Source: an uncultured Siphonobacter sp. (GTDB taxonomy: Bacteria > Bacteroidota > Bacteroidia > Cytophagales > Spirosomataceae). Taken from it: a stretch of 64,000 nucleotides of DNA. Shown piece by piece: positions 7,933-64,000 of the stretch; position 1 is the first letter of the stretch, and each line of letters opens with the position of its first letter. The stretch covers positions 62,001 through 126,000 of the forward strand of contig CAJYIW010000015.1 in assembly GCA_913775095.1 (NCBI GenBank), read 5' to 3'. The translations under genes were made by a program, and so were the position numbers. A model generated the notes under the pieces. The model ran no database searches. It saw only the letters and a program-made list of their open reading frames with translations, and had not been told where the DNA came from.

Positions 7933-8960
7933 GCAGGATCAGGTATTCCCCCATTCACCGTTTATCGAAGTCTTGCCAGAACCGGCTTGCGGTGAGGTTC
8001 AACCGCCTGAGCCTGACTATGCTTACCTGGGAGGCAGACGGCTGGCCTTTCATTCAGTTCATTAGTTATTAATTTATTGATTAACAGACATTTACTATCC
8101 AATAGCTGTTCAGAAAATGAATACTCTGTACACCTTTCTGAACACGTCCTACACCCACAGCCCCAACATAATCAGGTTGTACCCAGGGGCCGGAGTCATT
8201 GAGTAATTACACGTTTTGTTCAAACCTGCCTAATTCATTTTTAGTCGTAAAAAATGAATTTAAGGCCTTTGGTATTCATGAATACCTATTTGAAAGGGTT
8301 TTATATTCTCATTGAATGACTTAACCATCAGTCATAAACCCTATTTGTTAAAATTAAAAGCCTTTTTGTACAATTTAAATATTTTATTATACAATACATT
8401 TGTAGTATTAAAAACCTACCTCCCAAGAGGACCCGTTGCCCGGATATTCAAAACAAATTGCATTCAGTGTATGCCCAGGTGTTAACATCAGATTCGCCTA
8501 TGAAAAAGGAGTTCTCTATAGCGACGTTAAAGAATGGTCTCGTCAATCGGAAAAATAGAAGCTAAGCAGTCGGGCTAGGGCGGGTAAGGACCTACGGTAG
8601 TAGCCCTTCTTCAGGCTCCCGAAATAACGGAAGGAGGTAATCCGTAACAGCAAATGGATCGCCTCTGAGCTCCGATCTCTGCTTCAGCTCAATACTGTGA
8701 TCAAGGGGTACTGATCGCTCATTTTTCGTTGACGTATATCGTACAGGGTTATTTGCACTGTACACGCCTATGATCTGTCTTTTGAATACCATCCTTACTA
8801 CCGGCGAAAAAGAAGTTTCTGCCCTCATCCCTGCTTTTGCCCCTTAGCCAGGATTTATACTTCAGCTTTCATTACCAGCTATATATAAACCAGATACGTA
8901 CACCTTAATCCATACGATTACGTATCGTTCTGCTAATCCATATTCTCAATTTTCTAACGC
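7933..8960. other. Long non-coding gap before the sugar-transporter gene
   Basis: About one kilobase with no convincing gene. The part around 8200-8420 is AT-rich and contains TACATTTG at 8395-8402, a perfect match to the -7 consensus TAnnTTTG, but no TTG lies at the expected distance upstream. A stretch ending at 8558 stays open for about 48 codons and reads like protein (GVNIRFAYEKGVLYSDV), yet it has no clear start and may be the remnant of a lost gene. I see no RNA gene. The gap probably carries control elements for the carbohydrate locus that follows. Confidence 0.4.
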
Positions 8961-22585: not shown

Positions 22586-25138
22586 TTAAAATGAGACGTG
22601 TACGGCCGCCCGGATTCCAAAGGATCTAGCCCCCGCCGCATCCAGGTGAGTCAGGCGGTGAACCGCTACGATACGCAGAACCCGGAAAATATTGTCCACG
22701 CCATAACCGACTTCAACGTAGGGTACATCAGCCAGCGATTTAGGCAGGTAGAACTGGGACAAGGGTATTTCTCCGTTCGTGAAATACTTGGAAAGCAGGT
22801 TTTCATTTTCCGGGCGTAAATTCCCTACCAATACTTTCCCTACGGCAAACGTTCGTAAATTCCATCGATTTAGTAAGGGTATGCGGTTAGTAAACAATCC
22901 TTCAAACGAATGATGAAACGCAAGGGACACGTACCGATCACTGGCAAATTCAGCATACTTCATTAAGTTGAAGGCATTTTTAGCGTACAGAAATGTTTCA
23001 TTCCCCAAATGAACATTCAGCAGGTTGACCGGCAGTAGTGAAGGCGTGTACATGGCTTCAAGCGTATAATCCGTTTTACCCAGAATACCCAGGCGAAGCG
23101 TATGCGATACGTCCGCTTTAAAGATGTGATAATCACCCAGGTTCTTCTCTAAGGGGCTTAACTCCGCATCGGTAATATGTCCTAAGGTGTAATTCAACCC
23201 AATACTTGGCAGAGTGCTACCCTTTCGAATGCGAATCCGATTGGGATTTCGGGTGGGCAGCCGGTTGGGTACGTAGCGAAGAGCAATACTGGCTTCGGGA
23301 GCATCGTAAGGCCCTAAAATGGAGATACGATCATTGACAAATTCCACCGGGCGGAACTCAAAAATGGGATTAAAACGACGATGCCGCAGCGTAAGGGTAC
23401 TCGTAAAATCCTGGAAAAAATCCCGTTGCCAGAACAACTGAATGTCCCGCTGATAAAAAGCCCCATTAAGATTGCCAAACCGTGAAGCCAATCGTAACAA
23501 GGGATTGTCGCTAATATCTACCTGACGGATACCGATTTGGTCAATGTCAAAATCCGTCTTGAATCCTACCCGCGTCAACGGAGCCAGCGAGGGAATGAAC
23601 GTTACTTGCAATCCATGCTTTATCATCTGGTCACGCGTGCCATAGGCCAGGTATCCCTTGGCTAACCACTTTTTGCTAAATCCTGGACTCGTCCGCATAC
23701 CTACCCAAAACCGATTATGCTCAATGGCATTATAGGCATAACTGGAAAACAAAGACCCTAATTCAAGACTTCTGGAAAGAGGAATATAGCCTCCGTTCAT
23801 GCCAAAATCAACCAGGCGAGCCACGCGTTTGAAGGAAGGCACTTGGCTTACCGTATCGATTAAGCCTAAAGAAAGCTGCTCCTCCCGGGTCATTTTCTGC
23901 TGATGCTGCTGATGCCAGAAAGCCTGGTCTTCGGTATGGCTATCGGCCACTATCTCAACGGGGGTATTAAAAAATTCAAGGGGCCTGGGCTGATTAACGA
24001 CGACCTCATCCGTACTCACGGTAAGACCCACTTCTATACCCGTGGATTGATCGAAAAGTCCCGAGGCATCAATCGTTAGCCTGGTTTGCTGGGGTATCCA
24101 GACGTGTTCGTTTGAGGCGAGCGGTTCAAACTCCTGCTGGATGAGCAGGTGATCAATGAAGTTAATATTAGCCGTTTTTTCAATAGCCGCGTCGATTTGA
24201 ACCAGGGCGTAGGAAGTAGTATCAATCCACATCGATCCCCGAAATGCCAGGTCATGCTCATTTTTGGGATCAAAATCAATTTTGTAGCAGGCCTGTGCTC
24301 CTACCCGCACCGTATCGCTCAGGAAGTATGTGTAAAACCCGGCTCCGGTTTTAGCCAGAGGCGAACTAAATTCTTTCCGAAAAAGTCCTACCCAGTTCTG
24401 ATAGAAGTTGATGGTATTATAACCGGAGGCGGTTAACCGGGCAATAAAATCTTCGTCCGCCACGCCGAGACCTTTGGCGTATTTTTTCTGAATAATTTCT
24501 TTCATGCGAACCGGGTCTTTCCGGAAAAAAACGGTGGAAACCGACTCCGAAGCGTAAATGGGAATCTTCACTTCCGCCTTCGTGTGCCGCGTCGACTCCA
24601 GTTGAGCCATTTTATCATAGATATCGCGAATGACTTTTTTCTTTTTAAACGCTTCCGATAGGTTCCTGACCGAAAGATTGATTCTACTATACGCCTGCCA
24701 TTGATAGGCTTTTAATTGGGCAAAATCATTTTGTTTCCGATGTTCGTCCACCAGACGCATCACCCGATAGGCCGGATCCTGTCCGCGGCCCCGAACGACT
24801 ACCTCCCGAAGCTGTTGGGAGGTAGCCGATAGCGGAACGTGGATGGTTTGTTGAAGGTGATACGTCATGGGCACGCTTTTACTTTGATAGCCAACGGCCG
24901 TGACGAGAAGTGAATCCGATCGCTCCCTGGTCAGGAATCGAAAATTACCTTCAAAGTCGGCCTGCGTTCCCTGAGCTTTGCCTTTGAGCCCAAGGGTGGC
25001 AAATGGAATTCCTTCCCCCGTTTTGGCATCGGTGACCTTGCCCGTAAGCACATAAGTGTCCTGCGTTTGCCCCCATGTGGCTGGAATACCCAGGAAAAAT
25101 ACAGCAATCAGGAAAAGGAATTTAGTTTGGATGATCAT
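22586..25138 (-). CDS. DUF5686 / carboxypeptidase-regulatory-like outer-membrane protein
   Basis: This 850-residue protein has a signal peptide (FLFLIAVFFLGIPATWGQ), then a carboxypeptidase-regulatory-like domain (about 28-110, LTGKVTDAKTGEGIPFATLGLKGKAQGTQADFEGNF), and then a long DUF5686 region that ends in a predicted beta-barrel with a terminal aromatic (AVHVSF). Members of this family occur in most Bacteroidota outer membranes; their function is not settled. There is no TonB plug. The gene is upstream of the small coiled-coil protein and 57 bases after the DoxX gene, so a short minus-strand operon is plausible. Confidence 0.88.
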   Translation of the reverse strand: MIIQTKFLFLIAVFFLGIPATWGQTQDTYVLTGKVTDAKTGEGIPFATLGLKGKAQGTQADFEGNFRFLTRERSDSLLVTAVGYQSKSVPMTYHLQQTIHVPLSATSQQLREVVVRGRGQDPAYRVMRLVDEHRKQNDFAQLKAYQWQAYSRINLSVRNLSEAFKKKKVIRDIYDKMAQLESTRHTKAEVKIPIYASESVSTVFFRKDPVRMKEIIQKKYAKGLGVADEDFIARLTASGYNTINFYQNWVGLFRKEFSSPLAKTGAGFYTYFLSDTVRVGAQACYKIDFDPKNEHDLAFRGSMWIDTTSYALVQIDAAIEKTANINFIDHLLIQQEFEPLASNEHVWIPQQTRLTIDASGLFDQSTGIEVGLTVSTDEVVVNQPRPLEFFNTPVEIVADSHTEDQAFWHQQHQQKMTREEQLSLGLIDTVSQVPSFKRVARLVDFGMNGGYIPLSRSLELGSLFSSYAYNAIEHNRFWVGMRTSPGFSKKWLAKGYLAYGTRDQMIKHGLQVTFIPSLAPLTRVGFKTDFDIDQIGIRQVDISDNPLLRLASRFGNLNGAFYQRDIQLFWQRDFFQDFTSTLTLRHRRFNPIFEFRPVEFVNDRISILGPYDAPEASIALRYVPNRLPTRNPNRIRIRKGSTLPSIGLNYTLGHITDAELSPLEKNLGDYHIFKADVSHTLRLGILGKTDYTLEAMYTPSLLPVNLLNVHLGNETFLYAKNAFNLMKYAEFASDRYVSLAFHHSFEGLFTNRIPLLNRWNLRTFAVGKVLVGNLRPENENLLSKYFTNGEIPLSQFYLPKSLADVPYVEVGYGVDNIFRVLRIVAVHRLTHLDAAGARSFGIRAAVHVSF

Positions 25139-48960: not shown

Positions 48961-50268
48961 TTATGTAACTAATAACTCAAGCAACTCTTGCTCTAATCCA
49001 CACAAAATCTCCTGTTTGGTGAATCCCGTTATCGGTACATCTCTAGCCGTAATGACTATAGGTTCCTGCATAAACGTTGGAGCAGCTACCGTAAATGTAT
49101 GGCTGGAGGGAGTCTGTCCGGGTAGACTAGGGTATACTAGAAATACCCGGCGACTCCCTCTCCGAAGAGCATAACTGATCATCTGGTAAAGATCCGTCTG
49201 ACTGATCCCCGCCTTAGCATCCGCTTCTACTGAACGCACTTTGTATTTGGTATCAATGATTATCACCTCCCCTTCATGGGTCATAAGAAGAGCATCATTT
49301 TTAATGATAAATACGCCTTCCTGAGTTAGTTTACCCGCTTTTTGTAAATCAATGGAACTAAATTGAGAAGCTAGCTTCTCTTTCATCACGCCCGTTACAA
49401 ACTCTTCAAATACCCGATCCATGGGTACAAGGAAACAAAACTGCTGTTCGGTAGAAGCCGTTTGATTGCTGTATCGATCCGAGAGGAAAAACCGGCATAA
49501 ATCCAGGCAATGCTCATAGCCTTCGTAAAACCGATGCAGAGCCATTCGGTCACAGTCTTCCCGGCTGACGGGCACATCGGCTACTTCATCTAAATGGAAC
49601 AGCAGTCTTTCTAATGGCTGCCTGGTTTGTAGCCGTTTGGAAAGTCCTACCAGTTTGCGGGTAACAAACTTGATGATCTGATTGAGCCGGTTATCGAACG
49701 CAAACGGCTCATATTCACAGACTAGCTCTTGCCAGTTGCCCTGGCTTACACTACTGCGTATATAACCTAACGTATCAAGCCTTCCCCGCAAGTAAGGCAT
49801 GCGTTCGGTGACTGACTCGTACTGATGATACGGTTGCTCCTGGATTAAGGTCTCTGCCGTATAAGCAAAGTATTGAAAGAAAGCCTCCGGCAAATCTTCT
49901 ATAGAATCTGAATCGCTACTAAGTTTCGTAAAAGGGAACTTAAAGCTTTGAGCATACGATAACCACCATAGCACGTGTTGAAACGCCAGGCCCGCCTGCT
50001 CTACGTTGAAAAGCTTGGGAATGATCTCGATGGTTATGCCCTGAAACTGAATGAAACCCACATATTTGCCTGCTCTGATGCGAGGTCCCAGGTTAGGGCC
50101 TGCGTATTCAAAACTTAGAAAAGGCTGCTTCAAAGACGCTTCTTGTGAGGGATCCTCCCAAAGTCTGCTTTGCCACACTTCGTCCAGGTAGTTTTGCAGA
50201 GCGGGCACGTCAACGGTTAGGGGAAGCGTTACGTCTGCCTTTTGATGCTCAACCAGGGTTATTTTCAT
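48961..50268 (-). CDS. mcrC: McrC family 5-methylcytosine restriction subunit
   Basis: This 435-residue protein has the McrC plan: an N-terminal DNA/McrB-contact region (YAGPNLGPRIRAGKYVGFIQFQGITIEIIPKLF) and a C-terminal PD-(D/E)XK nuclease core visible as DALLMTHEGEVIIIDTKYK, with D and the D-T-K-Y-K signature, followed by QTDLYQMISYA. Together with McrB it forms a type IV restriction complex that cuts modified, usually methylated, foreign DNA. Its start overlaps the end of mcrB by four bases. The nuclease residues are intact. Confidence 0.92.
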   Translation of the reverse strand: MKITLVEHQKADVTLPLTVDVPALQNYLDEVWQSRLWEDPSQEASLKQPFLSFEYAGPNLGPRIRAGKYVGFIQFQGITIEIIPKLFNVEQAGLAFQHVLWWLSYAQSFKFPFTKLSSDSDSIEDLPEAFFQYFAYTAETLIQEQPYHQYESVTERMPYLRGRLDTLGYIRSSVSQGNWQELVCEYEPFAFDNRLNQIIKFVTRKLVGLSKRLQTRQPLERLLFHLDEVADVPVSREDCDRMALHRFYEGYEHCLDLCRFFLSDRYSNQTASTEQQFCFLVPMDRVFEEFVTGVMKEKLASQFSSIDLQKAGKLTQEGVFIIKNDALLMTHEGEVIIIDTKYKVRSVEADAKAGISQTDLYQMISYALRRGSRRVFLVYPSLPGQTPSSHTFTVAAPTFMQEPIVITARDVPITGFTKQEILCGLEQELLELLVT

Positions 50269-52484
50269 CCTAAATCTTTTACCTTGAGTTGATACGTCCT
50301 GGTATCCAGCTCTGCGGATAGTCCGGCTTCCGTTAAGATCTCACGTACAATAGTGGTCTTTCCATTAAAGTATTCCATGAGCAGGGGAATTACACGCTGG
50401 TTAAACACCTCCCCTAACGCTTCGTAAGGTTTATGAAGAAAGTAGGCATGGCCTATCAGATAGTCAGCGGTGCTTTTACGATGGTAAATACTATCATTTA
50501 GTTTTTTTAGAATGTTCGCGACCCGGCCTTCCATCCCGGCAAGCTCATAGTCCGGATATTTCCCCATAAATTCAAATCTCCGCCGCAGAGCGATGTCGAG
50601 TAAGGCTAACGACTTATCGGCCGTGTTCATCGTCCCGATTACGTAGAGATTCGGCGGTAAAGCAAAGCGTTCGCCCGAGGGAAGTGTTACACTCAGGGCA
50701 TTGGCTTGTCCCAGGCGTTTATCTTCTTCTAAAAGCGTAATCAGCTCGCCAAACACGCGGGAGATGTTAGCCCGGTTGATCTCATCAATTACTAAAACAA
50801 AGTTTTTAAGCGGCTCCGTATGGGTTTGATGGCTACCAGAACTAATGAGCACATCCAACAAGGGTTGATAATACGGCTTTAACCCATTAGTCTTCAGATC
50901 CTGATTTCCTTCATACAAAGCCTTGAGAGTGGCAATACTCAATGTATGCTGCGAGTCCCCGCGGTTCTTTCGAAAGCTGATACTTCGTTCCGAAATATCC
51001 GTGATATAAAATGGTATTCCCGAAGTCATCTGAACCCGTATTTCCTCGCCCTGCTCGGTGAAAGGCTGCATAAAACGCTGAAACACCTCTTCAAAAACAG
51101 TACGCGAAGGAATCTGTATCTGGCTACTCTCATAGTTAAGTCGTGCCCGCTTCGCGATCTGATAGAAAATCCCATAGTTCCGCTGGAACCGGAGGTCTTC
51201 TCCGTCCACATCAGGCTTTAGACCCATGACGAAATCTTCGTAGGAGTAATTTTGATGGAACGTAATAAACTCAATTAGCCCCGCTTCCTGCAATGCGTCG
51301 AATCGTTGTTTATGCTCGACATGTGAACTACCTTCGGATCCTTCAATGATTTTTACGGCTAAATCAATGGTTTCATACGTTTTACCCGTACCTGGAGGAC
51401 CGTATAAAATGATGTTCTTCGGATAGGTAGGTAACACGGGAGACTGACTCATGGCGGAATGATGAAAAATAAGTTGGATGTCTTCGAGACTAGTTACTTC
51501 CTGAATGGTGCTTTGATACGAACCTTTTCCTAATAGTTCAAATGGCTTAAAATCTTTTTCCCATTCTACTTTCAAACTCCAGCCATCACCAGGATTACTT
51601 TTCACCGTTCCAACTCCTCTAACACCCAATACCGAGACCGAATGACCAGGTCCTTGGGTGTAAGTAACCTTTGATGCCAGCTTGGCTCCAACAGGAATGC
51701 TCTTAATTAAATCAAACTCTTTTGGCTTTGTTTCTCCATGCCCATTTACCCAAATACCTTCAGCTATGAAGCGGGCGAGTTGATCCTCTTTGGTACTATT
51801 AAACTTAGCTCCTACGCAAAAGTAACGGATAGCCTTTTCCTGAGATGCCACATTTTCGACATAAGCGGCTTCGGAAATTTCATAAAAAGGGCGGGCATCC
51901 AGAGCTTTCACTGACTCTAAAATCGAGTGATAGTCTTCCAGGGTTTTAAAAGAAGAACGAAGCCCTCTTTTGTCAAGCCAGGATCTGGTCTGTCCATTGA
52001 TGGGCAAATAGCGATCGGGCTTATGATAGAACAGAGCCTCCGATAACTTAGCTGGAGCGGTCTTATAGATTTGTAAAACTTCTTTGAAGAGTTCTGGAGC
52101 TACGGCATCCTGTTCAACCTGCTCATAGAGTAATCTTAGTTTGTCTATATCTCTTTCTTTTCGAACTTTTGAATCTCCGAATAAGCGAACATTTTGAGCC
52201 GCTGCATTGGGAAGCCCGTTTACATCTAAGGGAGCCGTTGCTTTCAGGGCTAGTAGTTGCTTGAGCTTGCGTAATAACACAATCCGTCTTTGATCGCCGT
52301 ATTTGTTTAGATACGAAAGAAAGGAATACGGATCCATATCCGTAAGATCGATGATCTGTCCACTATGATCTTTTTCCGTAAGTCCTTCAATGTCCAGTTG
52401 CTTTAGAAGGTCTAGCAGCTCAAGGCCGGTATAGGAAAGAAGTTTAGCGGTTAATTCTTGATAAAAAGGCACCCAGGTATACAT
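50265..52484 (-). CDS. mcrB: McrB family AAA+ GTPase subunit with an unusual N terminus
   Basis: This 739-residue protein carries the McrB AAA+ motor in its second half: Walker A LYGPPGTGKT (about 367-376), VLVIDEINRANISRVFGEL (Walker B) and the McrB GTP signature IGTMNTADKSLALLDIALRRRF. The N-terminal part should read DNA modification. Residues 1-215 are helical and unassigned. Residues about 216-330 (YFCVGAKF, FIAEGIWVNGHGETK, VGAKLASKVTYT, VRGVGTVKSNPGDGWSLKVEWE) look like a small beta-barrel of the EVE/PUA-like kind, which is inference. It is co-transcribed with mcrC. The target modification may differ from the 5-methylcytosine read by the E. coli protein. Confidence 0.92.
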   Translation of the reverse strand: MYTWVPFYQELTAKLLSYTGLELLDLLKQLDIEGLTEKDHSGQIIDLTDMDPYSFLSYLNKYGDQRRIVLLRKLKQLLALKATAPLDVNGLPNAAAQNVRLFGDSKVRKERDIDKLRLLYEQVEQDAVAPELFKEVLQIYKTAPAKLSEALFYHKPDRYLPINGQTRSWLDKRGLRSSFKTLEDYHSILESVKALDARPFYEISEAAYVENVASQEKAIRYFCVGAKFNSTKEDQLARFIAEGIWVNGHGETKPKEFDLIKSIPVGAKLASKVTYTQGPGHSVSVLGVRGVGTVKSNPGDGWSLKVEWEKDFKPFELLGKGSYQSTIQEVTSLEDIQLIFHHSAMSQSPVLPTYPKNIILYGPPGTGKTYETIDLAVKIIEGSEGSSHVEHKQRFDALQEAGLIEFITFHQNYSYEDFVMGLKPDVDGEDLRFQRNYGIFYQIAKRARLNYESSQIQIPSRTVFEEVFQRFMQPFTEQGEEIRVQMTSGIPFYITDISERSISFRKNRGDSQHTLSIATLKALYEGNQDLKTNGLKPYYQPLLDVLISSGSHQTHTEPLKNFVLVIDEINRANISRVFGELITLLEEDKRLGQANALSVTLPSGERFALPPNLYVIGTMNTADKSLALLDIALRRRFEFMGKYPDYELAGMEGRVANILKKLNDSIYHRKSTADYLIGHAYFLHKPYEALGEVFNQRVIPLLMEYFNGKTTIVREILTEAGLSAELDTRTYQLKVKDLG

Positions 52485-59126: not shown

Positions 59127-59414
59127 CTAGGGCACTTTCAATAATGCATTAGAAGCAATAAAGCTCAGCGGAAAATGCTCAATTATCAAACTGAATTCAT
59201 TCTTCGATTGAGTCGATCCTATTTTAAGGTAGACAAGGTTGTAGCATGAGCCGTTCATTCTACTTTCTAGATTTGATAATGGCGGAGCTGGTGAGACCCT
59301 CTCCTTGACAGTAAGTAAAATTTCATTGGTCTGTTTTTGGGCTTCGAGTCCCAGCCCCGACCTCCCCTGCTTGACAGTCGATACTCGGTAATAGGCCACA
59401 AACACTTGCCTCAT
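59127..59414 (-). pseudogene. Serine recombinase N-terminal fragment
   Basis: The first 30 residues (VFVAYYRVSTVKQ, GLGLEAQKQ) are the unmistakable start of a small serine recombinase, with the catalytic Ser in YRVST. After about residue 35 the sequence no longer fits the family and the frame ends at 95 codons. The missing central and C-terminal parts are found, decayed, at 54667-55170 on the same strand. One gene interrupted by a 4-kb insertion is the simplest reading; two independent remnants are the alternative. Confidence 0.65.
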
Positions 59415-60220
59415 CTTTTAAATTATTTTAGTAATTAATTGTTTTACGAAGGAAATTTTTCAAAAGTAGTAAAAATTACAAAGCATGAAGGTTCCTTTAG
59501 AAAATGTTATATAGGTTTGAAATATAACTAAAAACTATTATAATAATCAAATCATCATTAACACTAATAAATAAGCAGAATATATAAAGTCTGAAAAACT
59601 ATTTGTAAAATGGTGTAAAAGCACTAATCATAATTATCATCTATTTAATGTAGTAACACATCAATATTATTTATAAAGCATAGGAAGTTTATAGTTTGTG
59701 ATTGACCATTCTTAAAAACACTGTATACCTAATGGTTATAATTTTATATTATGTTTTATTATCAATTATCAACATATCTTATATATACGAAAGGTATGGC
59801 TCCTGTTACCTCTTTAAGTGTTACGTTTCTTCATCATCAGGATAATTAATAATATACCTTATTAAATAGAGAATAGCTATAATACATTTGATCATTAAAT
59901 TTTAGGATCCGCTAATGGCTGCTTACAAATTCAAGTATGAATGCTAAATTTCTCCTATTCATCTTTATGGAAGAGATAGTACTGTAGTAAGCTAGACAGC
60001 TCATCCAGGGAACCTCCTAAACTCTCCTTTCAGTCATGTACGCAGTCTATGCCTTGGCTGAAGGAGGTGTATCCTTGATTTGGCAATACCCTTTTACTTA
60101 CTCCCCCACCCTGCCGTTAATTTGCTCAGCATTATGAGCCGCTTACATTCCGGTTGATTCGCGTAACTCAACTATACCGGTCCTAATTCCAACCCAGGAC
60201 CACTGATAAAATCATTGACC
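59415..60220. other. AT-rich non-coding stretch
   Basis: 800 bases with no gene, very AT-rich to about 59900 and then mixed. I see no long repeat and no RNA gene. It borders the replicon repeat region and may include an AT-rich unwinding element, which cannot be shown from sequence. Confidence 0.35.
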
Positions 60221-60598
60221 TCTTCAAGACGTCTTACATCTATCTTATAGACGTCTTGAAGACATTTGAATTTATTTTTTGGTTTCTGTAGCCAACCCAG
60301 CCAGACAATGCTTAGACTAACCGTTTCCTCTAAATCACCCAATGGGAAACAAACGGTAGTTACCAGAAAAATAACTCATTCAGCGGTGTCTTGGTTATGC
60401 CTTAGAGACGTCTTAGAGACATAACGCAGGTGCCTGGATTACTGGTGATCACTAGCATGAATAGTTTCTTCATTCCCTCTCGCCTATTGCTTTGCAGAAG
60501 ACTTATAAACTCTACCTTCCTTTTTACGAATACATTCCCTCAGGATTTACTTGTCTCTTATTACTGCACATCAATAGCTAAGTAAAAGATCACCGCTC

Positions 60599-60663
60599 TA
60601 GAAAGCGGGCAGACACCTATCAGACGTCAATCTGACGTCTGATAGGTGTCTGCCCGCTTTCTA
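60599..60663. repeat. 31-bp perfect hairpin inside the palindrome cluster
   Basis: Bases 60599-60629 and 60633-60663 are perfect reverse complements with only a three-base loop. The tip of each arm is a GACGTC site, so the structure combines the array motif with a cruciform-forming sequence. Possible roles are a single-strand initiation site, an origin cruciform or a recombination site. Confidence 0.8.
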
Positions 60664-61602
60664 TTTCTCTGAACAGCAACGTAAATTTAAGCAGGTAAAA
60701 GGCAAGCCTAATATTCAGCTAATAACACACCATTAACCAGCAGATTCATTCCTTAGGAATACTATGCAAGTATCCTTTTTCTGTAAAGGCAGTAACTGAT
60801 TCTATATAAATAATAGTTACCATAAGACGTCTCTGAGACATACATTAGACGTATAAAAGACGCCTTGATTAAATTCGAAGGTGTTTACCGATTTGCTTGA
60901 ACCCGTCATCTATTCCTAATGTCTCAAAGACGTCTTAGGGGCGTCGGTAAGACATTCCTAAGACTATTGATCTCTCTCAAAGAATCCTTGCCCACGGACC
61001 TCTGAGCGACTCATGTAAGGTGTCTGATAGACGTACCTAAGACGTCTTAACCAATTTCCCTTTGACCCAGAATTCCCTGTACGTTTCTAGGCAGCGTGCG
61101 TTTTGCCCCAAAGCAGGCGGACCTAACTTCTGCCTTCAGTGAGTACACGTTAAACCTGGTCCTGTTTGATCCTTTAATTCCCTATGCGAAGCAATGGCTT
61201 GTTGTTTTATACGTTCCGGATTCCAAGGGGGTCATGACCGGCCGTTCGGGCTATCACTGACATATCTGAATCCATACAATTGGATCACTGCTTCGACGCA
61301 TAGCCAAAGTCACCCGCCTGAAGGCTTATGTAATTCAATAAATGTACGCAGCTACTCCTTGAGCTTTTTACGGGTTCATTATGCCTGCATTGCCGCTTTT
61401 AAGAAAACCATCTTAATTGCCGATCGCAGGTTAGCTCGCAGGGCGTCAAAAGACAGGAGAGAATACCGCGTTAATCATAAAGTTCAAAGACATCTCTTAG
61501 ACTGACTAAAGACGTATAAAAGACGTCTCCTAACTGAATACATTATTTTTCAGCCAAGGTCATTTAAACGGAGACAAGCAACATCAATTCTATGCATATC
61601 TT

Positions 61603-61638
61603 TATTGACATCTTTGAGATGTCTTAAAGATGTCAATA
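61603..61638. repeat. 13-bp inverted repeat upstream of parA
   Basis: TATTGACATCTTT (61603-61615) and AAAGATGTCAATA (61626-61638) are perfect reverse complements. The ten bases between them contain GATGTCTT, so the ATGTCT/AGACAT variant of the array motif appears three times in 36 bases. It is about 150 bases before parA and may be a regulator site. Confidence 0.6.
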
Positions 61639-61790
61639 GCCTGTATCTAATAGAAGTTCTTTTAGATAATTCTTTTAAAACGGCCTAATGAGCTTGGAAT
61701 CAAAGAAATTAATGATTTACTTTGGCGTCATAAGGACGTCGTTTTGACATATTAGAGACGTCTTCAATAGGTCTCACAATTGACACTACC

Positions 61791-62459
61791 ATGGTCATTA
61801 CAGTAGGGGGTACCAAAGGAGGAACGGGTAAAACCACCATCGCTACGAATGTAGCGATCTATCTGACTCAGCTCGGAAGAGATGTGTTATTAATCGATGC
61901 CGATGACCAGCAAACGGCCTGGGATTTCTCGACGTTCAGGCATGAAACCCTGGAAGGAAGTCTGGGATATAACCCCATTAAAATGAATGGCGAAACCATT
62001 CACACGCACATTCGGAATCAGTCTAAACGGTACACCGATGTGGTAATCGACACGGGTGGGAGGGATACCGCATCCCAGCGTTCTGCCCTCGTGGCCTCAG
62101 ACGTTTACCTCATTCCTCTGGTCCCGCATATGTTTGAAATGTGGAGTCTGGCTAAAGTGGATCACATGGTACGGGAAATTCATACCTTTAATCCAAACCT
62201 GAAGGCGATGGCGTTTCTCAATAAAGTGGAACCCCGTTCCATTTACGTCGAAGACAGTGTAAGCCTTCTCCAGCAGGCTACTGACATTGAGTACCTCAAC
62301 GCTCCTTTAGGAAACCGGATTGTTTACGTACATTCTTCCGTACAGGGATTAGGAATTGGAGAATATAAGCCGGTCGACAAAGCGGCGACCAAAGAGTTTA
62401 CTGATTTGATGACTCTGGTTCTGGAGCGAGCCGGACAACCTGTACCCAACCATGGCTAA
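61791..62459 (+). CDS. parA: ParA-family partition ATPase
   Basis: This 222-residue protein has a deviant Walker A motif with the signature lysine (GGTKGGTGKTT, K9 and K15), LLIDADDQQTAWDFS (switch I/Walker A') and VVIDTGG (Walker B). Its short length and lack of an N-terminal helix-turn-helix place it with type Ib plasmid ParA proteins, where the small partner and not ParA represses the operon. It overlaps the next gene by 8 bases. It moves or positions the replicon on the nucleoid together with that partner. Confidence 0.93.
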   Translation: MVITVGGTKGGTGKTTIATNVAIYLTQLGRDVLLIDADDQQTAWDFSTFRHETLEGSLGYNPIKMNGETIHTHIRNQSKRYTDVVIDTGGRDTASQRSALVASDVYLIPLVPHMFEMWSLAKVDHMVREIHTFNPNLKAMAFLNKVEPRSIYVEDSVSLLQQATDIEYLNAPLGNRIVYVHSSVQGLGIGEYKPVDKAATKEFTDLMTLVLERAGQPVPNHG

Positions 62460-62763
62460 GAAAAAACCAGGACTGGCCATGCCGAAATCCACGCTGATGT
62501 CGGCGGCCGAGTTAGAAGAGCAATTCATCCAGAAGGGAGGGTCGTCTCCTTCGTTATCCAAACCGGCTCCGGAATCGGCCCCTGACGCTGAAGACGAAGA
62601 AGCCATCCACCGTTTTACCCTGCGGCTTCCGAAAAGTCAGAAACTGGCCATTGATCAGGTCATTAATCAGAGTGCGATGTTGAAACGCCTCGGAGCCACT
62701 CATTTCATCATTCAGGCCATTGAAGAGAAACTCGCCCGGGAAGCTAAATCCCAGCAGAAATAA
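62452..62763 (+). CDS. Small ParA partner, ribbon-helix-helix-like centromere-binding protein
   Basis: This 103-residue protein has a flexible, Pro/Ser/Glu-rich N-terminal half (after MAKKKPGLAMPKS) and a C-terminal segment HRFTLRLPKSQKLAIDQVINQ ... LGATHFIIQAIEEKLARE. Its strand then two helices fit a ribbon-helix-helix fold. Type Ib plasmid partition partners have this layout: the flexible arm stimulates ParA and the RHH binds short repeats. It overlaps parA by 8 bases. The AGACGTCT array upstream is the expected binding site. No close family name is claimed. Confidence 0.75.
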   Translation: MAKKKPGLAMPKSTLMSAAELEEQFIQKGGSSPSLSKPAPESAPDAEDEEAIHRFTLRLPKSQKLAIDQVINQSAMLKRLGATHFIIQAIEEKLAREAKSQQK

Positions 62764-62764
62764 T

Positions 62765-62800
62765 AGGCAGAAAGGCTCGATGACTCGAGCCTTTCTGCCT
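62765..62800. terminator. Bidirectional terminator between the partition and rep genes
   Basis: AGGCAGAAAGGCTCGA (62765-62780) pairs perfectly with TCGAGCCTTTCTGCCT (62785-62800) around TGAC. It starts two bases after the partner stop codon and touches the stop codon of the convergent rep gene, so it should end both transcripts. Confidence 0.85.
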
Positions 62801-64000
62801 TAATCCAGCGTGAAACCCAGGTTTTCGGCCAAGGGCTGAAAAGTGGTCCTGATCTCTTTGAGTTTTTCCGGGTATTTCTGCTGAAAATAATGAATTTTCA
62901 ATCCCTGAATCATTCCGGAACCCTCCTTCAATTGCTCGGCCAGGGTGGAAGGAGTAACCTTCATTTTATTGAAAATCGTAATGGCAATCTCCAGGTGCAC
63001 AGGGATGCGTTCCTGCTCACTCAAAGCCTGAATGAATTCAATGAAATGCCGGGCTTCCTGAAGGTCCCGAAGAGCCGCCACCATTACTTCATTCAGATGA
63101 TTGGCGTACAGATCACGTAAGGTATTACGGGCCGTTTCCAGCGAATCTTCTGCCTTGGGTTTGGGAACCGTGTGTACCACGGGCGGGGCCCCTGTCTTAA
63201 CTTTTCTGCGGGAAGCCGTTTCCTTATTACCCACTACTTTCGCCAGATAGGCCACCGGATTTTTTATATCATTCCGCTGTTCCAGATACGAGAGTCCCAT
63301 TTCCAGATTACGCTGCACCTGATCCGTACCGTATTTATCAATCCAGCCCTGGTAGGTTGCCTTGGAGACAAAATACATTTTGAGACGGGTGAATAAGGGA
63401 TCCTCCGGAGCTGATTCATCGTCGGCCGACAGAAAATCCTCCGGATCGTCCACGCCCGTTAATTCCAGACTTGGTTTGCCTTCCAAAACAAAACAAACCG
63501 TGTGCGTAACCCGCTGTCGTTTGACTTCGGTAATATCCAGAATCTGAATGTCCGTTTCCCGGTTAATCTCCTCCATGCAACGCAGGAGAATCCGGTGCTT
63601 GAAATCCGAATACTTTTTATAGGAATCCTTGGGCACCGAAAGCATGAATCGCAACTCATCAACATTGTACTTCGGGTAGGCCGTTTGCTGACGCAGCCGA
63701 TGCTTAAGAATCATGTACAGCTTGATCGAGTAGGGGGAAGCCAGCTGAGTCAGATACTTCGTGGATATGCTTAAATACTCGCTCTTGAGCTGAAGCAAAT
63801 AAGGCTTTAAATCGGGGTGGAACCTGACCAGAATATGAGTTTTATCGTCTTCCAGTAAAGGTTCGGCTTTTTTATCCAGCACCGGAATGGTAATTCGGTA
63901 GGGCTTCCCGTCAATTTCACCAATGCGGGAGAACGTTCGGTGCGACAGATTGAATACCGCCTCCCGTAGGAGTTCATACTGGCCTCCCGAATCATTTAAA
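62800..64000 (-). CDS. Rep_3-type plasmid replication initiator (5' end outside the window)
   Basis: A GTG-initiated frame would begin at 63882, but the same frame stays open to the window edge and is clearly coding (ELLREAVFNLSHRTFSRIGEIDGKPYRITIP), so the start lies beyond 64000. At least 399 residues are present. The winged-helix Rep_3 (initiator replication) signature is visible as LASPYSIKLYMILKHRLRQ ... YNVDELRFMLSVPKDSYKKYSDFKHRILLRCMEEINRETD. The C-terminal 200 residues include a helical segment with GWIDKYGTDQVQRNLEMGLSYLE. It initiates replication by binding iterons. Convergent with parA across a shared terminator. Confidence 0.88.
   Translation of the reverse strand, partial: LNDSGGQYELLREAVFNLSHRTFSRIGEIDGKPYRITIPVLDKKAEPLLEDDKTHILVRFHPDLKPYLLQLKSEYLSISTKYLTQLASPYSIKLYMILKHRLRQQTAYPKYNVDELRFMLSVPKDSYKKYSDFKHRILLRCMEEINRETDIQILDITEVKRQRVTHTVCFVLEGKPSLELTGVDDPEDFLSADDESAPEDPLFTRLKMYFVSKATYQGWIDKYGTDQVQRNLEMGLSYLEQRNDIKNPVAYLAKVVGNKETASRRKVKTGAPPVVHTVPKPKAEDSLETARNTLRDLYANHLNEVMVAALRDLQEARHFIEFIQALSEQERIPVHLEIAITIFNKMKVTPSTLAEQLKEGSGMIQGLKIHYFQQKYPEKLKEIRTTFQPLAENLGFTLD

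Follow-up and report, generated by a model that had tools for sequence, protein, structure and literature searches.

The 1.5-kb array of AGACGTCT palindromes and half-sites upstream of parA is, as judged from the sequence, very probably the centromere (a putative parS) of a type Ib ParABS system carried by a circular plasmid. This reading is based on the strict 11-bp phasing of the sites, the concentration of a phased doublet in the array, similar clusters at an orthologous locus, the array periods of relatives, the predicted ribbon-helix-helix (RHH) partner of ParA and the separate iterons of Rep. A partition site had already been proposed in the preliminary description of this DNA, and the proposal was strengthened by the location of the array next to parA, by the similar clusters of Siphonobacter sp. 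BAB-5405 and by the phased arrays that many relatives carry. Centromeres of the type Ib kind are known; the array would be a variant of this kind, useful for the set of relatives, varying in half-site and pitch, to which it leads.

The replicon and its phased array

The contig measures 144,767 bp and begins and ends with exactly the same 127 bp; the window, i.e., the whole analysed stretch of 64,000 nucleotides, spans its positions 62001-126000. Terminal repeats of this kind are what an assembler produces from a circle, and the contig was therefore taken to be a circular plasmid, about 144,640 bp in size. A search of 142,867 of its bases for Rfam families, which include the rRNA and tRNA models, gave no match. 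Both observations support a plasmid, the earlier statement having been that the window is on a plasmid or chromid. The same plasmid carries McrBC-type restriction genes (window 48961-52484); one product matches PF10117 (E 2e-63), and another contains an AAA_5 domain. On the upstream side of the array there is a 95-aa ORF (59127-59414, minus strand), the start of which (YYRVSTVKQG) resembles that of a serine recombinase; it had no Pfam match at E 0.1. Since a recombinase gene is found upstream of parA in two relatives, this ORF may be a recombinase remnant. On another contig of this genome (G000:C6), pattern matches occur in three pairs (10352/108655, 43948/75059, and 55317/63690) that have identical letters on opposite strands and are mirrored about one centre; this contig may represent an assembly artefact or a palindrome about 119 kb long.

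Exact AGACGTCT was found eight times, as reported before; the copies, at 60227, 60249, 60406, 60825, 60928, 61040, 61521, and 61756, all lie between 60227 and 61763, against 0.45 copies expected in the 64-kb window; eight copies were reached in none of 100 shuffles, and the remainder of the window contains none. The last copy ends at 61763, leaving 27 bases to the parA ATG at 61791. It was fair to call this DNA otherwise empty, as the sole ORF of at least 60 aa inside the array is 61194-61505 (103 aa). A count over the whole genome had been proposed as a check, and the 5.65-Mb genome holds 30 copies, eight of them inside the 1.5-kb array, which shows that the palindrome is concentrated there and does not have a similar density throughout the genome. 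Among the other copies, one lies on contig C17, 236 bp upstream of another parA, and three are elsewhere on the plasmid (G000:C15 16518, 24556, and 50303), each of them single and without the phased doublet AGAC-N7-AGAC. This doublet occurs 73 times in the genome, with 15 occurrences in the array and 0 elsewhere on its contig; as the reversed pattern, used as a control, gave 212 matches in the genome, the doublet is notable for its concentration in the array and not for its genome total. No DNA resembling the array was found among 72,556 plasmid records.

The spacing of the sites had been described as irregular, which holds only between clusters, a strict 11-bp grid being kept inside them. When every AGAC or GTCT in 60220-61790 was placed on its own octamer (34 positions), all 34 pairs of half-site centres separated by up to 36 bp were at 11 (17 pairs), 22 (10) or 33 bp (7), and no other distance was present in this range; the number of 11/22/33-bp pairs in 1000 shuffles had a mean of 0.304 and a maximum of 3. 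Extension from the best sites resulted in nine clusters of 3-5 consecutive slots, 36 slots in total (Table 1), where a slot is one copy of the palindromic octamer AGACGTCT, in many cases degraded in one half, followed by 3 bp. The full octamer is present in 8 slots, and 7 more match it at 7/8 bases. Distances between cluster starts range from 92 to 470 bp and fit neither 11-bp nor 10.5-bp periodicity.

The arms of the perfect inverted repeat around cluster 3 reach past the four grid units that it contains. Folded as RNA, this hairpin has an energy of -61.1 kcal/mol (z -13.6) and a terminator-like score on the plus strand; it could be a cruciform or a transcription end.

Table 1. Features of the array and of the adjacent genes (window coordinates).
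Feature	Coordinates	Strand	Description
Cluster 1	60216..60267		5 slots on 11-bp grid, 2 exact AGACGTCT
Cluster 2	60406..60435		3 slots, 1 exact AGACGTCT
Perfect inverted repeat	60599..60663		31-bp arms, 3-base loop; encloses cluster 3
Cluster 3	60611..60651		4 slots, 0 exact; within perfect inverted repeat
Cluster 4	60825..60865		4 slots, 1 exact AGACGTCT
Cluster 5	60917..60968		5 slots, 1 exact AGACGTCT
Cluster 6	61018..61047		3 slots, 1 exact AGACGTCT
Cluster 7	61488..61528		4 slots, 1 exact AGACGTCT
Cluster 8	61606..61635		3 slots, 0 exact; AGATGTCT-like
Cluster 9	61723..61774		5 slots, 1 exact AGACGTCT; end 16 bp before parA ATG
parA	61791..62459	+	222 aa; Pfam AAA_31 E 4.6e-16, match from residue 2
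Partner (putative centromere-binding protein)	62452..62763	+	103 aa; N-terminal FIQKGGS, linker, C-terminal RHH-like domain, strand HRFTLRLP
rep	62800..64000	-	Rep_3 initiator, convergent with parA; continues past window end

Partition genes, known systems and rep

The genes parA, the partner of 103 aa and a Rep_3-type rep are all situated where they had been placed. ParA/MinD-type ATPase models match ParA from residue 2 onward, and the best NCBIfam match there is ParA_partition (144 bits, with a curated cut-off of 180). Type Ib ParA proteins are described as having 192-308 aa and no N-terminal DNA-binding domain (PMC3235114), which agrees with the 222 aa of this protein and with an ATPase match beginning at residue 2; the motor is ParA-like and not an actin-like ParM, as it would be in a type II ParMRC system. 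The partner gene starts 8 bp before the end of parA, and its product falls within the 46-131 aa of type Ib partners encoded next to parA. The presence of a repeat array upstream of the operon likewise follows the type Ib layout, for which repeats in this position and an operon-repressing partner with an arginine-finger flexible arm and an RHH domain have been reported (PMC5016525).

No family of Pfam or NCBIfam was matched by the partner, and a match with phrog_13890 (unknown function; E 1.1e-5) covers residues 48-102; 6 of 16 partners matched this group at E<=0.1. Among 39 distinct partners encoded beside related ParAs, the N-terminal motif is [KR]GG[STKA] in 35, a variant with a basic residue in 3 and QGGS in 1, i.e., an arginine-finger-like position in the N-terminal arm, which may serve to stimulate ParA, is K or R in 38 of 39. 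The motif is followed by a variable linker and by a C-terminal domain patterned as strand, helix, helix. Comparison (hhalign) of a partner profile with 27 RHH_1 proteins of other Bacteroidota gave a probability of 76 (E 2.3e-5) over 45 columns, which include the ribbon and both helices, and four controls (HTH proteins and reversed partners) gave probabilities below 1. The Pfam RHH_1 model itself gave no match in 19 relatives, this genome included; of 26 domain sequences it matched 3 (best E 0.019), and an unrelated model matched as many. In PDB sequence searches the matches were weak, with two CopG-family RHH proteins (E 0.22 and 0.61 in one search, 0.75 and 2.4 in another) being slightly outscored by ribosomal S3Ae. 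AlphaFold models of the partner (pLDDT 71.3 for a single sequence and 67.5 for two sequences) consisted of helices with no strand and were too poor to help. The identification of the partner as an RHH protein with a flexible N-terminal arm, made in the preliminary description, is thus supported by one profile-profile match of moderate probability, whereas the Pfam RHH_1 model itself does not detect the partner.

The nearest experimentally tested precedent is parCAB of the Myxococcus plasmid pMF1, for which footprints and gel shifts of ParB on AGATGTCT-like sites, present in several clusters on the plasmid, were reported (PMC3235114). Both systems have a small type Ib ParA (28% identity over 201 residues, E 6e-24; record EU137666), and the small ParB of pMF1 is described as acting on clusters of AGATGTCT, a AGACGTCT-like octamer (PMC3235114). 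However, the octamers of pMF1 abut, with all close site pairs at multiples of 8 bp, whereas those of the present array are set at 11 bp and do not follow the pMF1 type; moreover, pMF1 ParB shows no significant similarity to the 103-aa partner (E 0.45), and a third gene, parC, is located upstream of parA in pMF1. Similarities were also found with delta/omega/parS of pSM19035, which is reported to combine a small ParA and an RHH centromere-binding protein with parS repeats divided among several clusters, each of 7-10 short units and overlapping a promoter (PMC9499535, PMC5016525). Full activation of its ParA is said to depend on a run of four or more contiguous repeats (PMC9499535), the clusters here having 3-5 slots; unlike the present units, its repeats are described as non-palindromic 7-bp heptads at a 7-bp pitch, with clusters on the promoters of several genes. 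In parFGH of TP228 the repeats and the layout are different, the centromere being described as continuous (PMC5016525). As for type II systems, ParR/parC of R1 and pB171 are reported to comprise an RHH protein and repeats at 10-11 bp, and ParR of Clostridium perfringens to use the same 8+3 geometry, i.e., two imperfect 8-bp repeats 3 bp apart, with binding lost once the 3-bp spacer was removed (PMC9426499). The motor of the R1 and C. perfringens systems is the actin-like ParM and not ParA, and the likeness is one of description. Within open-licence PubMed Central text, no 11- or 12-bp phased centromeres of such plasmids were recognised; this statement concerns that text, subscription papers (e.g., on pTAR and pCXC100) lying outside its scope, and does not imply absence from print.

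MetJ is an RHH protein with strand contacts. The octamer AGACGTCT is identical to the met-box consensus, of which E. coli met genes are reported to carry two to five contiguous copies (PMC4239095, PMC12925634), and this identity, together with the presence of cluster 9 at the position of the parA promoter, may suggest that the array serves chiefly as an operator region, at which a MetJ-like or other regulator controls transcription, and not as a centromere. We regard this as very improbable. The pitch of 11 bp differs from contiguous 8-bp boxes, the partner matches no Pfam family and hence not the MetJ model, and these two facts led us to reject membership in the MetJ/met-box group, which is moreover described as acting in gene repression with SAM and with no ParA. 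Furthermore, the distance to parA downstream is 744 bp or more for clusters 1-6, 263 bp for cluster 7 and 156 bp for cluster 8, and 36 slots would exceed the need of an operator. As a part of the putative centromere, cluster 9 is probably also the operator of the parA operon, given its end so close to the parA ATG.

The array is located within 3 kb of rep, plasmids with Rep_3 are reported to have iterons, and on chromosome II and the megaplasmid of Deinococcus radiodurans the repeats upstream of parAB have been reported as origin and parS. It could therefore be supposed that the array is a replication origin composed of Rep_3-bound iterons, alone or besides a partition role; this is highly improbable, as rep has iterons of its own, CCGAGATATTTGTCGCC, on its other side, just past the window (contig 126273-126877). 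Within 3 mismatches, nine copies of CCGAGATATTTGTCGCC are found there on one strand and one on the other, with five at 21- or 42-bp steps, whereas the AGACGTCT region contains none even at 4 mismatches, and the array thus shares no iterons with those beside rep. Since Rep has these separate iterons, its binding to the AGACGTCT array is unlikely. A similar repeat, TTTGTCGCC, was recognised by eye beside rep of the BAB-5405 locus, and a phased array is also present upstream of parA in a Deinococcus locus where the annotation shows no rep at a distance of up to 3 kb. In two other loci (L073 and L077) rep itself is upstream of parA, and the 21-22-bp repeats found there may be Rep iterons.

Periodicity and half-sites in related loci

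The orthologous locus of Siphonobacter sp. BAB-5405 (L004) encodes a ParA of 94% identity and has, by eye, similar clusters directly upstream of parA (period 11, p 0.04). Given this identity, the host of the present plasmid is very probably a Siphonobacter as well. Its partner (NZ_NJAG01000109.1, after 1233; the same contig as G004:C65) is divided between two frames, matching residues 1-40 and 29-102, which is either a real frameshift or a sequencing error.

For the analysis of periodicity, the strongest period among 7-17 bp was determined in the 300 bp upstream of parA for 44 loci oriented by the ParA match and for L079, of which 42 had distinct upstream DNA. The best period of these 42 loci was 12 bp in 32, 11 bp in 7 and another in 3; p<=0.01 was reached by 24 of them (21 at 12 bp and 3 at 11 bp) and missed by 18. 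In 15 further loci the best period was invariably 12 bp (13 at p<=0.01). Together this gave 57 loci (52 of the 71 listed matches, four plasmid records and one viral contig) with the best period at 12 bp in 47 and at 11 bp in 7, where several loci are close relatives and thus non-independent, and where the 300-bp stretch may in some cases, L069 being a likely one, include coding DNA favouring multiples of 3. Among viral contigs one partner relative (L079) was found, and none with two other alignments. In the control composed of regions upstream of other ORFs, p<=0.01 was reached by 8 of 116 (one at 12, none at 11), and the best period overall was 12 in 11 and 11 in 12 of them; random segments of the plasmid contig, a less suitable and imperfect control, reached p<=0.01 in 10 of 150 cases, four of them at 12. 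Of 12 further plasmids, 11 of which came from other phyla, four reached p<=0.01, all at 11 (Chondrocystis, two Pseudanabaena, and Methylobacterium nodulans, in which the stretch overlaps a gene), and eight, two Deinococcus among them, missed it; a third Deinococcus (L074), belonging to the first set, reached p<=0.01 at 12 bp.

The nearest relative within the same genome is located on contig C10. Its ParA is 56% identical, and its array is built from another half-site at a period of 12 bp (z 3.6 and 4.1), which was also the best period in the test described above (p 0.03). In the ParA tree C10 groups with this plasmid (C15) and L004, and the plasmid thus appears to be an 11-bp variant within a clade in which 12 bp prevails. 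The label 11 was given in this tree to C15, L004, L066, and L067 only, and these four loci imply a minimum of three changes; the signals of L061, L017, and L052 at 11 were weaker, and these loci received the label 12. The array of this plasmid is larger and more scattered than the arrays of relatives inspected by eye; the AACGTT-type arrays of L026 (G000:C17) and L013 (G005:C206), also judged by eye, are near-continuous at 12 bp over 500-600 bp and denser. On a 27.8-kb contig of another relative (G008:C3), partner and parA are present twice, with equal scores (8281-8559 and 22903-23181), at a distance of 14.6 kb; the two stretches are not letter-identical, and the contig is possibly a plasmid dimer.

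Fixed periods do arise from tandem duplication, yet it is hardly credible that the grid of this plasmid is a functionless by-product of a decayed duplication of an 11-mer, as distant relatives also have grids upstream of parA, built from unrelated half-sites, a recurrence not expected from duplication alone, and as the commonest base is kept in 24-33 of the 36 slots in the eight octamer columns against 15-17 in the three spacer columns, a difference partly due to the choice of slots by octamer match.

Half-sites were assigned by eye and with phased k-mers, and were compared with a triad of partner residues (positions 2, 4, and 6 of HRFTLRLP in the partner alignment). Triad STK was accompanied by TACAAC or TAGAAC, RSE by AACGTT, GNK and ANK by ACTAA, NNK and NNR by ACACC, STQ by AGAAC, and RTR, the triad of this plasmid, by AGAC; TLR was accompanied by GATATC in two of four loci, this half-site not being seen in L017 and L021. 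Half-sites seem to follow the strand residues of the partner. A rough test pointed the same way: at 45-65% partner identity, the phased 5-mer similarity of same-triad pairs was 0.50 (n=53) vs 0.18 for the others (n=117), the pairs being non-independent, and the sole same-triad pair at 30-45% identity had a similarity of 0. Four such systems, with triads RTR, STQ, TLR, and RSE, are present in this genome, and six systems with six triads in G071. A triad was shared in 0 of 34 within-genome pairs (30 systems of 11 genomes, leaving out the second G008 copy and the G004 system with the broken partner frame) vs 2.3 expected; with P 0.07 this is not significant, and avoidance of shared triads within a cell is only suggestive.

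A model of the partition complex and its significance

In the proposed model, one dimer of the 103-aa RHH partner would bind each unit and read the octamer with an antiparallel beta ribbon, and the 11-bp grid would bring neighbouring dimers to almost the same side of the helix, each step adding a turn of about 17 degrees at 10.5 bp/turn. Neighbouring dimers may bind cooperatively, the grid setting how they meet. These two parts of the model, i.e., the reading of the octamer by the dimer and the role of the grid in dimer contacts, were drawn from the comparisons with type Ib systems, pSM19035, ParR of C. perfringens, pMF1 and the met boxes. Each cluster would then seed a partition complex, and the nine clusters would constitute a multivalent handle of the plasmid. 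The ATPase of nucleoid-bound ParA may be stimulated by the N-terminal arm, whose KGGS motif contains the conserved basic residue, and ParA in turn would move the plasmid and bring its copies into the daughter cells. Bound at cluster 9, the partner would presumably repress its own operon.

A broader idea, which we put forward tentatively and consider rather doubtful, is that a widespread centromere-binding family, unnamed in Pfam and NCBIfam and consisting of an [IV]xKGGS motif and an RHH domain, encodes plasmid identity in two separable variables, namely the half-site, specified by three outward beta-strand residues, and the array pitch, which is 11 bp here and 12 bp in the majority of relatives. 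A near-helical pitch would put the dimers on one face, so that the DNA might wrap a protein core as in ParR segrosomes, despite the ParA motor, this direction of wrapping being itself conjectural; the four systems with four triads and different arrays in one Siphonobacter cell would be an instance of such coding.

According to a 2026 survey, 52% of public plasmids have no partition system or an unidentified one. If the centromere reading of the array holds, the centromeres of many Spirosomaceae-like Bacteroidota plasmids, and perhaps those of some Deinococcus, cyanobacterial and alphaproteobacterial plasmids, would be detectable from sequence by an 11- or 12-bp grid upstream of parA. The octamer common to MetJ, pMF1 and the array, used at pitches of 8 and 11 bp, offers a neat comparison. 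The natural variants in half-site and pitch make it testable how RHH centromere proteins switch specificity and whether the pitch decides between a protein wrapping DNA and DNA wrapping a protein. The coexistence of several low-copy plasmids with related partition genes in one cell is a further question touched by this reading.
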